Position numbers and translations under genes: made by a program. Below, piece by piece: positions 12,338 through 20,248 of a DNA stretch of 64,000 nucleotides. The DNA comes from Methanoculleus receptaculi (GTDB lineage: Archaea; Halobacteriota; Methanomicrobia; Methanomicrobiales; Methanoculleaceae). Within the stretch, counting starts at the first letter, position 1, and the number at the start of each line of letters is the position of its first letter. Below the pieces are notes generated by a model. That model did no database searches. It was not told the DNA's origin and was given only the letters and a program-made list of their open reading frames with translations. The DNA is taken from the NCBI RefSeq assembly GCF_033472595.1, contig NZ_CP137642.1, positions 558,001 through 622,000 on the forward strand, written 5' to 3'.

Positions 12338-13411
12338 TCAGGGTGTCTTCTCCCCTACCCGGCGGGCGTAGTGGGTGATCGCCCACCCTAGAAGCGCCGT
12401 CGCAGCCGCGACCAGTGCCAGGACATACCAGTGGATCGGGCCGATGGAGTCCACCGCCAGCCTTACAACGAGGTTTAAGGGGTTGTAGGGGACTGCCATG
12501 ACAAAGAGGAGGGCCACCACGAGCGCCGTCGAGAATATGAACTGGGCACTCGTCCTCTCACGGTAATGGAGCGCGACGAGCGCCCCGAGCAGTATGAGGA
12601 CGAGACCGGACGTCGAGACGTGGAGGAGGATCGCCGTGGCGTTATCCACCGGGATGCCGTTTAGCCAGAGGAGGATGAGCCAGGCGCCCGCCTGGACAGG
12701 AACCAGAACCTCGCAGGCGGCAATCTTTCCCCAGATCACCTCCGTGAACATGATCGGTGTCGAGAGCAGGGTCTCGAGCGTCTGCCGCTGGTACTCCTCC
12801 GTGATCAGGTCGATGATCAGGGCCGCCGATACGATCGCCGGGAGGAAGACAAGCAGCGGGATGAGGAGACCGTAGACAAACTCAAAGAAACTCTCACCGC
12901 CCCCGGAGTCCGGGAAGTTCAACTCCACAGGTGAGTAGATCAGCCGGTCGGCCCGGGTCTCACGGAGTTGTTCCTCGTAACCCTGGAGAACCTCTTTTAT
13001 CTTGACGTTGACGACACCCGACTGAAGGTCGTTCTGGATGAGATAGAGCGTTACTGTGATCGGACCTTCAGCGTCGGGAGGTGTCTGCGGGACGTATACC
13101 ACCGCCGAGACCATCCGCTCGCGCAGTGCCGCAAGCGCCGCACCGAGATCCATCCTGTAAAGGATGAGATCGTCTCGTTCTCCAAACTCATCGATCAGCG
13201 GTGATTCCGCCCCGGCGTAACCGACTCTGTAGGTGACCGTTGAGTAGCCCTCGATAGCCTCGGGGTCATACATCGCGGTGAGTCCAACCATCAAGAACGA
13301 CGAGAACATCGCTATGAAGACCTGGAGGAGGATCGCAAAGACGATAGTCTTCTCCGATGACAGCCCGGCGATCTCTTTCTTTGCAATCAGATAGATATGA
13401 CGCCTCTTCAA
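12338..13411 (-). CDS. ABC-2 type transporter permease
   Basis: 357 residues with the ABC-2 permease layout: one membrane helix near residues 22-44, a soluble external segment of about 130 residues, and five or six helices from about residue 185 to the end. The start of the membrane block (SAALIIDLITEEYQRQTLETLLSTP) is the characteristic ABC-2 cytoplasmic segment. Its ATG overlaps the stop of the longer permease upstream by 4 bp, so the two form one transcript. The matching ATPase is divergent at 15294. Substrate unknown. Confidence 0.88.
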   Translation of the reverse strand: MKRRHIYLIAKKEIAGLSSEKTIVFAILLQVFIAMFSSFLMVGLTAMYDPEAIEGYSTVTYRVGYAGAESPLIDEFGERDDLILYRMDLGAALAALRERMVSAVVYVPQTPPDAEGPITVTLYLIQNDLQSGVVNVKIKEVLQGYEEQLRETRADRLIYSPVELNFPDSGGGESFFEFVYGLLIPLLVFLPAIVSAALIIDLITEEYQRQTLETLLSTPIMFTEVIWGKIAACEVLVPVQAGAWLILLWLNGIPVDNATAILLHVSTSGLVLILLGALVALHYRERTSAQFIFSTALVVALLFVMAVPYNPLNLVVRLAVDSIGPIHWYVLALVAAATALLGWAITHYARRVGEKTP

Positions 13412-15213
13412 AGGAGCATCCCCCCGATGAAGTAGAGGTTGTAGAGACTGTGGACCATACCTGCAGCAACGATTCCCGGCGCATAGGCGCGCCGCCCCCC
13501 GAGCAGCAGGAACCCCCCGGTGATCAGCACCCCGGCGATGTGGAGGAGGAGCGGCATCCAGAGCGCCTGGAGAGAGAGGAAGAGGATGCTCCCGAAGATC
13601 GATTCGGTGATCTGGGCAAGCGTGGCAAAGAGAAGGAGTTTTTCGCCGACAAGGAACCCGAGGCCTGTGACCGTTGCCCCGACGAGAAGGTTTCCCGGCG
13701 TGAGGAAACCGGGCCGATCCCTGACTATAGCGTAAAGCCCTATCGATTTTGCAAACTCCTCGATGACCGCGGCAGTGATCGTCAACAGGAGGAGAGAGAG
13801 CGGCATGGGGATGTTGAAGAAGAGGACGAGCGTCAGCATCTCGGCCATGAAGACGAACGGGATCATGAATGCGGCAAGCAGGAAGAGCGAGAAGTGCGGG
13901 TGGTTCCGGCTGATCCCGGTCGATATGAAGTCAACAACCCGTGATATCAGGCGTATCTCCGAGAAGAGGTGTTCTTCCCGGAAGTTTGCAATCCCGAGAT
14001 AGAAGAGGATGATGCTCGTTGCAAAGAAGAGCGCGGTCGAGTAGATGTACTCCATCGCGGTGAACCCGTCACCCTGGATTGCAATCACGACCAGGGTGAG
14101 AGGGGAGACGATGCTGATGACGTGGGTGTTTGCAAATACCGTCGGGAAGAAGAGGTATGACGTGGCGACGGTCGAGAAGAAGATCGAGACAAAGGAGAGT
14201 TCTTTGAAACTCCGGGACGTCATCCCTATGATGAGGGCGTTTGCCAGGAAGAAGAGGATGACCGGGACGAGCGGAAGGAGGATCGTAAGCGGCGCCCTGG
14301 CAAGGAGGGTGATCGCGGCCGCGATCAGGATCATGATCGTGAAGTAGGGAAGGGCCTTTCCTACGACGATCGCCACGGGACGGAGGGGGGTGGAGAGGAG
14401 CGCCTCACCTGCGCGTCCCACCCTCTCGTTCATCACACTCATCATGAAGAACTGGGAGGTGAAGTAGAGCGGGAATATGAAGACGAAGACCAGGATGATG
14501 GTATCAAACGGCAGCGGCAAAGAGAGTTCTGAGGGTGTCAGGAGTCTGTCTGTGGCGGACTCGCCAGAGATGAGAGATGTGTAGCGCTTGAGGGGCTGAC
14601 CATCCCCGGCCTCCACGAGATGCTCCCTGAGTTCTTCCTCGGTTGTGAGCCTGCCCTGGGATGGAGGTGTCACCTCCTCGACCGGGAGAGATGGAGATGG
14701 GGGTCTCCTCGTCTCCACGGGGGCGCCGACCTGCTGGCCGCTCTGGGTCGCAAGGAAATCGATCTCGCTCTTCACGTACTGGAGATCGATCCAGAGAGGA
14801 TAGGCGGCGAAGAGGTCGGGTTCCGCTGCCGCCACGCTTGCAACGTAACTCTCGTAATCGCGCTCGAGCGTATTTAATGCCGCACGCCCTTTATCCGTGT
14901 CAGCAGCGTAGACCTCCCCGTTTATGATGACGATATCGTAGGAAAACCTGTTCTCCCAGAGCGACGCTGCATCATCCTGGTATGTGGCAAACCGGGTGTC
15001 GGATGCGACTATACTGGCCGTGCCGGGGTCATCAACGCCGATCCGGTACATCCCGTCCTGTAGATGGAGACCGCTCTCTGCGGCAAATGCCGTCACCAGC
15101 ACCAGGAGGAGAAGAAGCCCCACAGCAATAGGCAGGATGCCTCTCCCCATCGTGGTCATGGATCGCTTTATCTCCCATGTGGCGATCGTCCGGATTGAGG
15201 AGATAAGACTCAT
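13408..15213 (-). CDS. ABC-2 permease fused to a PrsW-like intramembrane protease domain
   Basis: 601 residues. Residues about 20-430 form an ABC-2 permease: helix at 23-45, external segment to about 225, then a membrane block that includes the MSVMNERVGRAGEALLSTPL cytoplasmic segment. Residues about 435-601 form a second membrane domain with AAVIEEFAKSIGLY, GFLVGEK, LLHIAGV and MVHSLYN. The EExxK motif with later His residues is typical of the PrsW/CPBP-type intramembrane proteases. First gene of a two-gene unit with the smaller permease; divergent from the ATPase gene. Confidence 0.85.
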   Translation of the reverse strand: MSLISSIRTIATWEIKRSMTTMGRGILPIAVGLLLLLVLVTAFAAESGLHLQDGMYRIGVDDPGTASIVASDTRFATYQDDAASLWENRFSYDIVIINGEVYAADTDKGRAALNTLERDYESYVASVAAAEPDLFAAYPLWIDLQYVKSEIDFLATQSGQQVGAPVETRRPPSPSLPVEEVTPPSQGRLTTEEELREHLVEAGDGQPLKRYTSLISGESATDRLLTPSELSLPLPFDTIILVFVFIFPLYFTSQFFMMSVMNERVGRAGEALLSTPLRPVAIVVGKALPYFTIMILIAAAITLLARAPLTILLPLVPVILFFLANALIIGMTSRSFKELSFVSIFFSTVATSYLFFPTVFANTHVISIVSPLTLVVIAIQGDGFTAMEYIYSTALFFATSIILFYLGIANFREEHLFSEIRLISRVVDFISTGISRNHPHFSLFLLAAFMIPFVFMAEMLTLVLFFNIPMPLSLLLLTITAAVIEEFAKSIGLYAIVRDRPGFLTPGNLLVGATVTGLGFLVGEKLLLFATLAQITESIFGSILFLSLQALWMPLLLHIAGVLITGGFLLLGGRRAYAPGIVAAGMVHSLYNLYFIGGMLL

Positions 15214-15293
15214 GGTGATCCCGGAGGGTGTCTGAGAGGCATATTTCTGTAGGGCAACCTATTAGTAGGCATCGGAGACAAAAGAGATACCGG

Positions 15294-16181
15294 ATGATAG
15301 CGGCCCGCAATCTTGTCAAGTATTATGGCGAGTTCCCGGCCCTCGACGGCGTCTCGTTTGACCTTGACGATGGGGAGATCTTCGGGGTGATCGGGCATAA
15401 CGGCGCGGGCAAGACCACTCTTTTAAAGATCATGGCCGGACTTATCTCGCCGACGGCGGGCAGTCTTGTCATAAATGGGATCGACGTTGTTAAAAGACCG
15501 CTCGATCTGAAACGGAACCTTGGATACCTGCCGGAAGAGTCCAGGCTCTACGAGACTATGAGCGTTGAGGCGTACCTTGCGTTCTTCGGTGAGATCTACG
15601 GTCTTCCAGCAGACGTGATCCGGAAACGGTCGATGGAACTCCTCGACGAACTCATGCTGGATCCCGATGGCAAGAAGATCGGTGAACTCTCGAAAGGGAT
15701 GAAGCGGAAGGTCGCAATAGCGCGATCGCTGATCCACGATCCGGACCTGCTCATATACGACGAACCCACCTCCGGCCTCGACCCCATGACCTCACGCTCG
15801 GTGCTCGACTACATCAAGGGGCTGCGCAATCAGGGCAAGACGGTGGTCTTCTCCGCCCACAACCTCTTCCAGGTGGAAGAGGCCTGCGATCTCGTCCTGA
15901 TCCTGCGCCGGGGGAAGGTGGTGGCAAAAGGCAGCATGCACGAACTCCGGGAGGCATTTGGCTCGATTACCTACCAGATCTTCTTCAGGATCCCCGATCC
16001 CGCGACGTTTTCAACCCCGGTCAGTTACATCGCCTCCAATGGCCGCTACATGGCAGAGGCGCACAGCATCGAAGACCTTAACAGGATGACCGCGACGCTT
16101 GCGGCCGCCGGCGCAACGATAGAGCGGATCGAGTCGCACTACCCGACACTTGAAGAGATGTTGTTAAAGATCGGGCAGTGA
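15294..16181 (+). CDS. ABC transporter ATP-binding protein
   Basis: 295 residues with the ATG at 15294 (MIAARNLVKYYGEFPALDG); the frame is open upstream but the ABC domain starts here. Walker A is GHNGAGKTT (about residues 37-45), the signature is LSKGMKRK, Walker B is LLIYDEPTSGLDP, and the switch His is in VFSAHNLFQVEEA. About 70 C-terminal residues form an accessory domain. It powers the two divergent permeases across an 80-bp shared promoter region (15214-15293), most likely as an exporter or resistance-type system. Confidence 0.92.
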   Translation: MIAARNLVKYYGEFPALDGVSFDLDDGEIFGVIGHNGAGKTTLLKIMAGLISPTAGSLVINGIDVVKRPLDLKRNLGYLPEESRLYETMSVEAYLAFFGEIYGLPADVIRKRSMELLDELMLDPDGKKIGELSKGMKRKVAIARSLIHDPDLLIYDEPTSGLDPMTSRSVLDYIKGLRNQGKTVVFSAHNLFQVEEACDLVLILRRGKVVAKGSMHELREAFGSITYQIFFRIPDPATFSTPVSYIASNGRYMAEAHSIEDLNRMTATLAAAGATIERIESHYPTLEEMLLKIGQ

Positions 16182-19681: not shown

Positions 19682-20248
19682 CTACGTTATCAGCGAGATC
19701 AGGTCGTGCCTGGTGATCACACCCTGCACCTTCCCTTTCTCGATGACGATTACAGCATGGCTGTGGCGCAGCAGGTGGACGACCGTCTCTATCGGTGTTG
19801 TGGGGGGGACCGTCGGGAAACCCGGCTCCATGTAGTCCCTCACCACCCGCGGACATTTCTGGTGAAGTCCTCCCTCGTCCATTGCGTTCGTGATGGCCGA
19901 CTCGGATATGCAGCCGATGGGCACCCCGTTCTCGAGCACCGGCAACTGGGATATGCCTTTTTTCCCCATGATCTCGATGGCGCGGCTGACGGGATCTTCC
20001 GGCGTGACCGAAAAAACCGGGGAGTGCATCACGTCGGCCGCTGTCACCGCCGACTTCTCCGCTGCCTGCAGGACGTTCACGATCTTTGCGAGCGTGCTGA
20101 CTCTCGGATCCACGCTGCCCGCCTCGATCCGCGCCACCATGGACTGGCTTATTCCGGCCATTCTGGCCACATCAGCCTGTTTTAAGCCCATCTGGATCCT
20201 TTTTGCACGAAGTTCCGCTGGAGTTGGGATCTCCATTTGATTACCCAT
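19682..20248 (-). CDS. XRE-type HTH regulator with two CBS domains
   Basis: 188 residues. The N-terminal helix-turn-helix is [31 protein letters not shown] (residues about 14-44). Two CBS domains follow ([22 protein letters not shown] and a second one ending [19 protein letters not shown]). CBS pairs bind adenosyl ligands such as AMP, ATP or SAM, so this is probably a metabolite-sensing transcription factor of the type found across Euryarchaeota. It is convergent with tpiA and divergent from aroD, so aroD or itself is a candidate target. Confidence 0.88.

Follow-up and report, generated by a model that had tools for sequence, protein, structure and literature searches.

The window analyzed here, a stretch of 64,000 nucleotides from Methanoculleus receptaculi (contig NZ_CP137642.1, positions 558,001 to 622,000), carries on its minus strand an open reading frame at 13408–15213 that begins with ATG, encodes 601 amino acids and contains no internal stop codon. 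Its product joins an ABC-2 permease (residues 1–427; 13933–15213, minus strand) to a putative PrsW-type intramembrane protease domain (residues 428–601; 13411–13932, minus strand), in agreement with a preliminary description of this DNA in which a single polypeptide at these coordinates was said to combine a permease reaching to about residue 430 with a protease-type domain. The smaller permease and divergent ATPase named there as partners were both found: a second ABC-2 permease of 357 residues, the presumed partner subunit, is encoded on the minus strand at 12338–13411 (PF12698, E = 2.7e-14), and an ABC ATPase is encoded divergently on the plus strand at 15294–16181 (PF00005, E = 2e-30), in a reading frame open from 15228, for which sequence and homologue length make the ATG at 15294 the likely start over the GTG at 15228.

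We searched 62 loci with tblastn: the window itself, 20 loci of its own order, 40 of other orders or families, and a named haloarchaeal plasmid. The small permease gene follows the fusion gene in 62/62, and an ATPase gene is adjacent in 58, in the same direction in 18 and divergently in 40. At the four loci where no ATPase was found, L074, L096 and L111 are true misses at that threshold and L075 is cut by the upstream contig end. The genes for the fusion protein, the small permease and the ATPase form a three-gene module. We took these counts from tblastn because our crude ORF picker lets long antisense reading frames displace real genes.

The fusion protein has matches in 56 of 61 genomes including the window's own, 50 of them nearly full length and six fragmentary or split (G004, G014, G015, G021, G026 and G028, with a TGA in one of the G004 pieces). 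Homologues are also present in 147 of the 294 genomes, and 61 of the 107 genera, of an even sample of the phylum, many of them near full length and at 28–38% identity. Because of these matches the fusion gene is no chance open reading frame, and an assembly artefact is likewise ruled out; the fusion is evidently old, being spread over half of the sampled phylum genomes. Named carriers include Methanoculleus species, other Methanomicrobiales and Haladaptatus salinisoli. Scanning contigs of close relatives yielded 31 loci, each with an archaeal title, and a plasmid search gave one haloarchaeon. The Haladaptatus salinisoli copy, the only named annotated copy examined, carries the annotation 'ABC transporter permease subunit', which says nothing of a protease, and has the motifs EEVAK and GFFLGEK as well as the His motifs. 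The H. volcanii motility genes hvo_3001/hvo_3002 (PMC5198076) were considered as possible members of the family. We found no description of an ABC permease/PrsW fusion in the literature searched, most subscription journals lying outside it.

That the N-terminal half is a complete ABC-2 permease, as had been proposed, is borne out mainly by predicted structure. In a full-length Pfam scan the fusion protein matches PF12698 at E = 0.001 with 18.7 bits, below the cut-off of 31.6, and 22 of the 35 homologues in our alignment A1 match it at E ≤ 0.01 (best 4.3e-11); A1 holds 35 of 41 sequences from the window and loci L074–L113, with L075, L077, L080, L087, L097 and L102 omitted. Sequence searches of solved structures with the fusion protein and with A1 gave nothing credible. 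The AlphaFold2 model of the whole protein, built with the 35 sequences of A1, has a mean pLDDT of 82.7, and the best structural match of its permease half is chain E of NosFY (rmsd 4.2 over 211 aligned residues), at a Z of 14.9, also near the range that unrelated helical bundles can reach according to the tool's notes. Residues 1–432 of the model further match type-V exporters (ABCH, Z 14.8; ABCG, up to 14.1; KpsM, 10.9; PmtCD, 10.6; Wzm, up to 10.4), and the first 34 ranks are all ABC exporters, among which we count the rows labelled 'mycobacterial efflux pump', except for an APH-1 chain at rank 29. Residues 1–427 are thus modeled as an ABC-2 (type V) exporter permease fold, in which TM1 and TM2 are separated by an insert (residues 48–234; 14512–15072, minus strand) predicted to be extracellular and made up of a small alpha/beta domain plus a linker modeled at low confidence (pLDDT below 50 at residues 151–191 and 194–225).

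The C-terminal half had been described as PrsW-like, with a PrsW/CPBP fold expected; PrsW fits it better than CPBP. When residues 428–601 are searched in isolation, PF13367 is matched above its cut-off of 23.5 bits (28.1 bits, E = 1.7e-6), and a profile search of the genome gives the fusion protein 26.3 bits, while full-length Pfam scans of the fusion protein and its homologues leave the domain undetected. Among the isolated C-terminal halves of the 35 A1 members, 13 match PF13367 at E ≤ 1 and 22 do not. Aligned with hhalign against 16 stand-alone archaeal PrsW proteins (alignment A3, 16 of 30 candidates), the C-terminal half scores 91.5% at E = 8.6e-7 with the motifs in register, versus 2.3% over 25 columns against nine CPBP proteins (alignment A4, 9 of 9). 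PF02517 (CPBP/Rce1) has no match in the fusion protein and one, at E = 0.58, among the 35 C-terminal halves. On the strength of this, and of an EExxK motif in 95/95 homologues rather than the EExxxR that, with FxxxH and HxxxN, marks CPBP/Rce1, assignment to CPBP/Rce1 was rejected. PrsW is described as having EExxK in TMH3, a further His in TMH5 and HxxxD in TMH6 (PMC4602095), and the C-terminal half has the expected set of EExxK, a Glu in the second helix, a His and HxxxN/D over four successive helices. The window's genome also encodes a stand-alone PrsW (L114:1405–2097, plus strand; 134.8 bits) that is unlinked to the module.

The C-terminal half also folds confidently in prediction (mean pLDDT 93.4 over residues 428–601). 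Its best matches are a chain of the 7tm3 multipass translocon, which we take to be TMEM147 (Z 11.2), APH-1 chains (10.3–10.9) and a BOS-complex chain (10.5), followed at lower scores by LptFG (8.5), Mce1 (8.3), SpdC (6.7) and Rce1 (6.2). These matches come from VIA-align, whose notes call a Z of 10–11 possible for unrelated helical bundles, and are read together with the motifs; Foldseek gave no significant match to the same model (best E 0.56). Such a mixture is expected, because ABC membrane domains and APH-1 share a topology (PMC6588880). It is the residues, and not the fold alone, that settle the identity of this half as a predicted PrsW-type protease.

The EEFAK motif and later His motifs pointed out in the preliminary description are present and conserved, and the glutamates are invariant: E485, E486 and K489 of EEFAK (residues 485–489; 13747–13761) and E524 and K525 of FLVGEK (residues 520–525; 13639–13656) are identical in 95/95 distinct homologues. 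H558 (13540–13542) and H588, the latter in the HSLYN motif (residues 588–592; 13438–13452), are each identical in 93 of the 95, the other two having gaps there, and N592 is identical in 91/95; all four features lie on the minus strand. Of the two outcomes named in the preliminary description as refuting it, C-terminal helices that do not model as a PrsW/CPBP fold and glutamates lacking conservation, neither arose. The 95 are the distinct sequences among 110 of at least 480 residues from 114 sources, in which one genome may recur. In the 35 more divergent homologues, which have 20–38% identity to the fusion protein of the window, the invariant columns of the C-terminal half are exactly E485, E486, K489, E524, K525, H558 and H588.

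Taken together, the model and the counts of basic residues give about five membrane passes in residues 428–601. Lys and Arg together average 3.91, 2.51 and 2.23 per protein in the inside loops 410–437, 497–507 and 570–579, and 0.09 and 0.06 in the outside loops 464–473 and 530–541, so that the motif residues come to lie inside the membrane. Residues 539–600 form one long helix in the model; given how long it is and that it contains the basic stretch 570–579, we interpret it as two passes. The C-terminal half looks like an active, membrane-buried protease. The evolutionary distances of the two halves correlate (Spearman 0.73; none of 999 permutations as high, the best reaching 0.30), as expected if the halves were joined once and then inherited together.

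The pairing of a permease with an intramembrane protease is already a known kind, because NCBIfam NF041647 (636 positions) catalogues an 'ABC transporter permease subunit/CPBP intramembrane protease', which, to judge by name and length, likewise unites in one polypeptide a permease and an intramembrane protease from the same broad superfamily. The fusion protein is not a member of that family: it has no match at E ≤ 1, one of the 35 A1 members matches at E = 0.0012, and none of 120 phylum genomes has a match over the cut-off of 435 bits, 98 having weaker ones. In the present module the protease is PrsW-type rather than CPBP and is carried by the other permease subunit, the small permease being the one that weakly matches the N-terminal part of NF041647 (7e-14, far below the cut-off). 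What is new, to judge from these comparisons, is the PrsW-type version of the permease/protease fusion. Peptidase-containing ABC transporters have a C39 domain, a cytosolic cysteine protease, built into an exporter with a fused ATPase; they resemble the present protein in having a protease inside an exporter subunit, and differ from it in that here the protease is intramembrane, the permease is of the ABC-2 type, a different kind of exporter, and the ATPase is separate. PrsW (PF13367), the site-1 protease of RsiW in Bacillus subtilis, has the same EExxK and later His in successive helices, whereas here these are fused behind an ABC-2 permease, the second motif is GEK instead of the EN of stand-alone PrsW relatives, and there are about five passes rather than the eight of 'most representatives', a number that is typical and not strict (PMC3482391). 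A functional precedent is found in Staphylococcus aureus, where the intramembrane protease Eep and the ABC exporter EcsAB are placed in one linear-peptide pathway (PMC7157817). There the two are separate proteins with known substrates (lipoprotein leaders), and the precedent is only an analogy because Eep is a site-2 metalloprotease, of another family. For the enterococcal pheromones, too, a model of proteolysis followed by ABC export has been put forward (PMC10202637).

Building on the architecture, the conservation, the partner genes and the position of the motifs inside the membrane, all of which the sequence and the model establish, we tentatively propose, as a reading somewhat short of an even chance, that the module is a cut-and-export machine for membrane-embedded peptides in which one ABC-2 permease subunit carries a PrsW domain at its C-terminus. 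In this scheme the pore, powered by the ATPase, would be built from the permease half together with the small permease, with the PrsW half sitting in the membrane after the final helix of the permease. The PrsW half would cut in or beside a hydrophobic membrane segment, which could be a transmembrane helix, a signal peptide already spent or the leader of a lipoprotein; driven by ATP, the pore would extrude or clear the cut fragment, so that one complex would do what the separate Eep and EcsAB do in Staphylococcus aureus. Such sequential cutting and clearing seems the most economical idea; the proteolysis, the substrate and the coupling are parts of it that we infer. The role suggested in the preliminary description, that the protease could process an exported peptide or a lipid-linked substrate, would be compatible with it. 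It is also conceivable, though improbable, that the fused PrsW frees short hydrophobic peptides from signal peptides or membrane proteins which the same complex secretes, a dedicated linear-peptide route conserved across methanogens and haloarchaea; if so, secretion by the fusion complex would serve archaeal signaling or rivalry.

The targets of archaeal membrane proteases are described as scarcely known (PMC9263693). Here a candidate protease site lies hidden in a protein that the single named annotated copy labels as a plain permease, although its homologues occur in half of the phylum genomes sampled. If the protease and the pump are coupled, the fusion would allow the link of ABC transport to intramembrane proteolysis to be tested directly within one polypeptide, and would open a way to study how archaea turn over membrane peptides or secrete peptides. 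That link is known with separate partners in Gram-positive bacteria.

The BOS-complex chains, APH-1 and SpdC are not known to be proteolytic, and the fold matches to them (Z 10.3–11.2 for the first two, 6.7 for SpdC) would suit a C-terminal domain that serves the exporter structurally or by binding lipid and is no protease. The topology that APH-1 has in common with ABC membrane domains (PMC6588880), together with the LptFG and Mce1 matches, points the same way. This explanation is weakened, and in our judgment made quite unlikely, because seven catalytic-type residues are invariant in the 35 divergent homologues and no other column of the C-terminal half is; moreover, ABC membrane domains are without these polar residues, and APH-1 is described as having QExxR in place of the EE motif (PMC6588880). 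If the domain is a protease, it may instead regulate, cutting a membrane regulator or partner upon envelope stress or a toxic peptide while the exporter acts as sensor. B. subtilis PrsW, which acts as site-1 protease on the anti-sigma factor RsiW ahead of the site-2 protease RasP (PMC10202637), is a precedent for such a role, and in 14 of 35 Methanomicrobiales loci (for example, L158:1599–2744, plus strand) a syntenic block includes a gene for an M50 site-2 protease with a CBS-like tail, no more than 9 kb from the fusion gene. However, about three genes separate it from the fusion gene, no M50 gene was seen near the module in the loci examined outside Methanomicrobiales, the M50 genes of the window's own genome lie elsewhere, away from the module, and the wider set shows no regulator gene conserved next to the module; we regard a regulatory role as rather unlikely, if less so than a domain that is no protease.

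The protease might also serve in sorting or anchoring surface proteins, removing a C-terminal membrane tail and leaving transport of the protein, or of its lipid, to the pump. Myxosortase, a CPBP protease, offers a precedent (PMC11980579), and secreted or surface-type proteins are encoded downstream of the module in some lineages: genes for secreted-type proteins that by eye are PEGA-like in 7 of 35 Methanomicrobiales loci, and a CARDB/BatD/DUF11-type secreted protein (L078:11581–13398, plus strand) in five loci of one family, of which one copy was scanned. Such neighbors are not common to the lineages, though, and an archaeosortase (TIGR04178) is already encoded in the genome; we give a sorting role little probability.

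The preliminary description had suggested looking for small peptide genes near homologues, and the outcome counts against the cut-and-export reading. None common to several families was found among 551 gap ORFs of 15–100 residues that lie up to 4 kb from the fusion gene at 35 Methanomicrobiales loci, a search that small gap ORFs lying under false long ORFs could escape; what it left is one candidate limited to a genus. Among the best 12 groups of small ORFs, one occurs in 12 loci, three occur in three loci each and the rest in two each; the group of 12 was rejected as a peptide gene, since it lies over tRNA-Lys in 4/4 loci checked. The candidate is a single-span membrane protein of about 70 residues encoded downstream of the small permease and in the same direction in three loci of one genus: 75 nt past the small permease gene in L161:10157–10369 (plus strand), 97 nt past it in L166:11876–12088 (plus strand), and past one further ORF in L169:6407–6622 (minus strand). 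It is possibly a substrate or an accessory protein. A second script, aimed at small hydrophobic ORFs immediately following the small permease gene, found them in 2/62 loci, a count that we did not use because the script missed two of the three known cases.

The genes around the module differ from lineage to lineage, and with the crude ORF picker no gene cluster beyond the module recurred in more than 5 of the 49 sources of the wider set. The window encodes a helix-turn-helix protein with CBS-like repeats (19682–20248, minus strand), loose relatives of which lie near the module in 5 of those 49 sources, possibly by chance. A penicillin-amidase family protein is encoded downstream in two loci of another family (L083:11604–14234, plus strand; one copy scanned), and a small conserved protein of 63–87 residues with repeated C-x-x-C pairs is encoded in gaps near the module at L171:6055–6246, L173:6078–6269 and L175:6699–6962.
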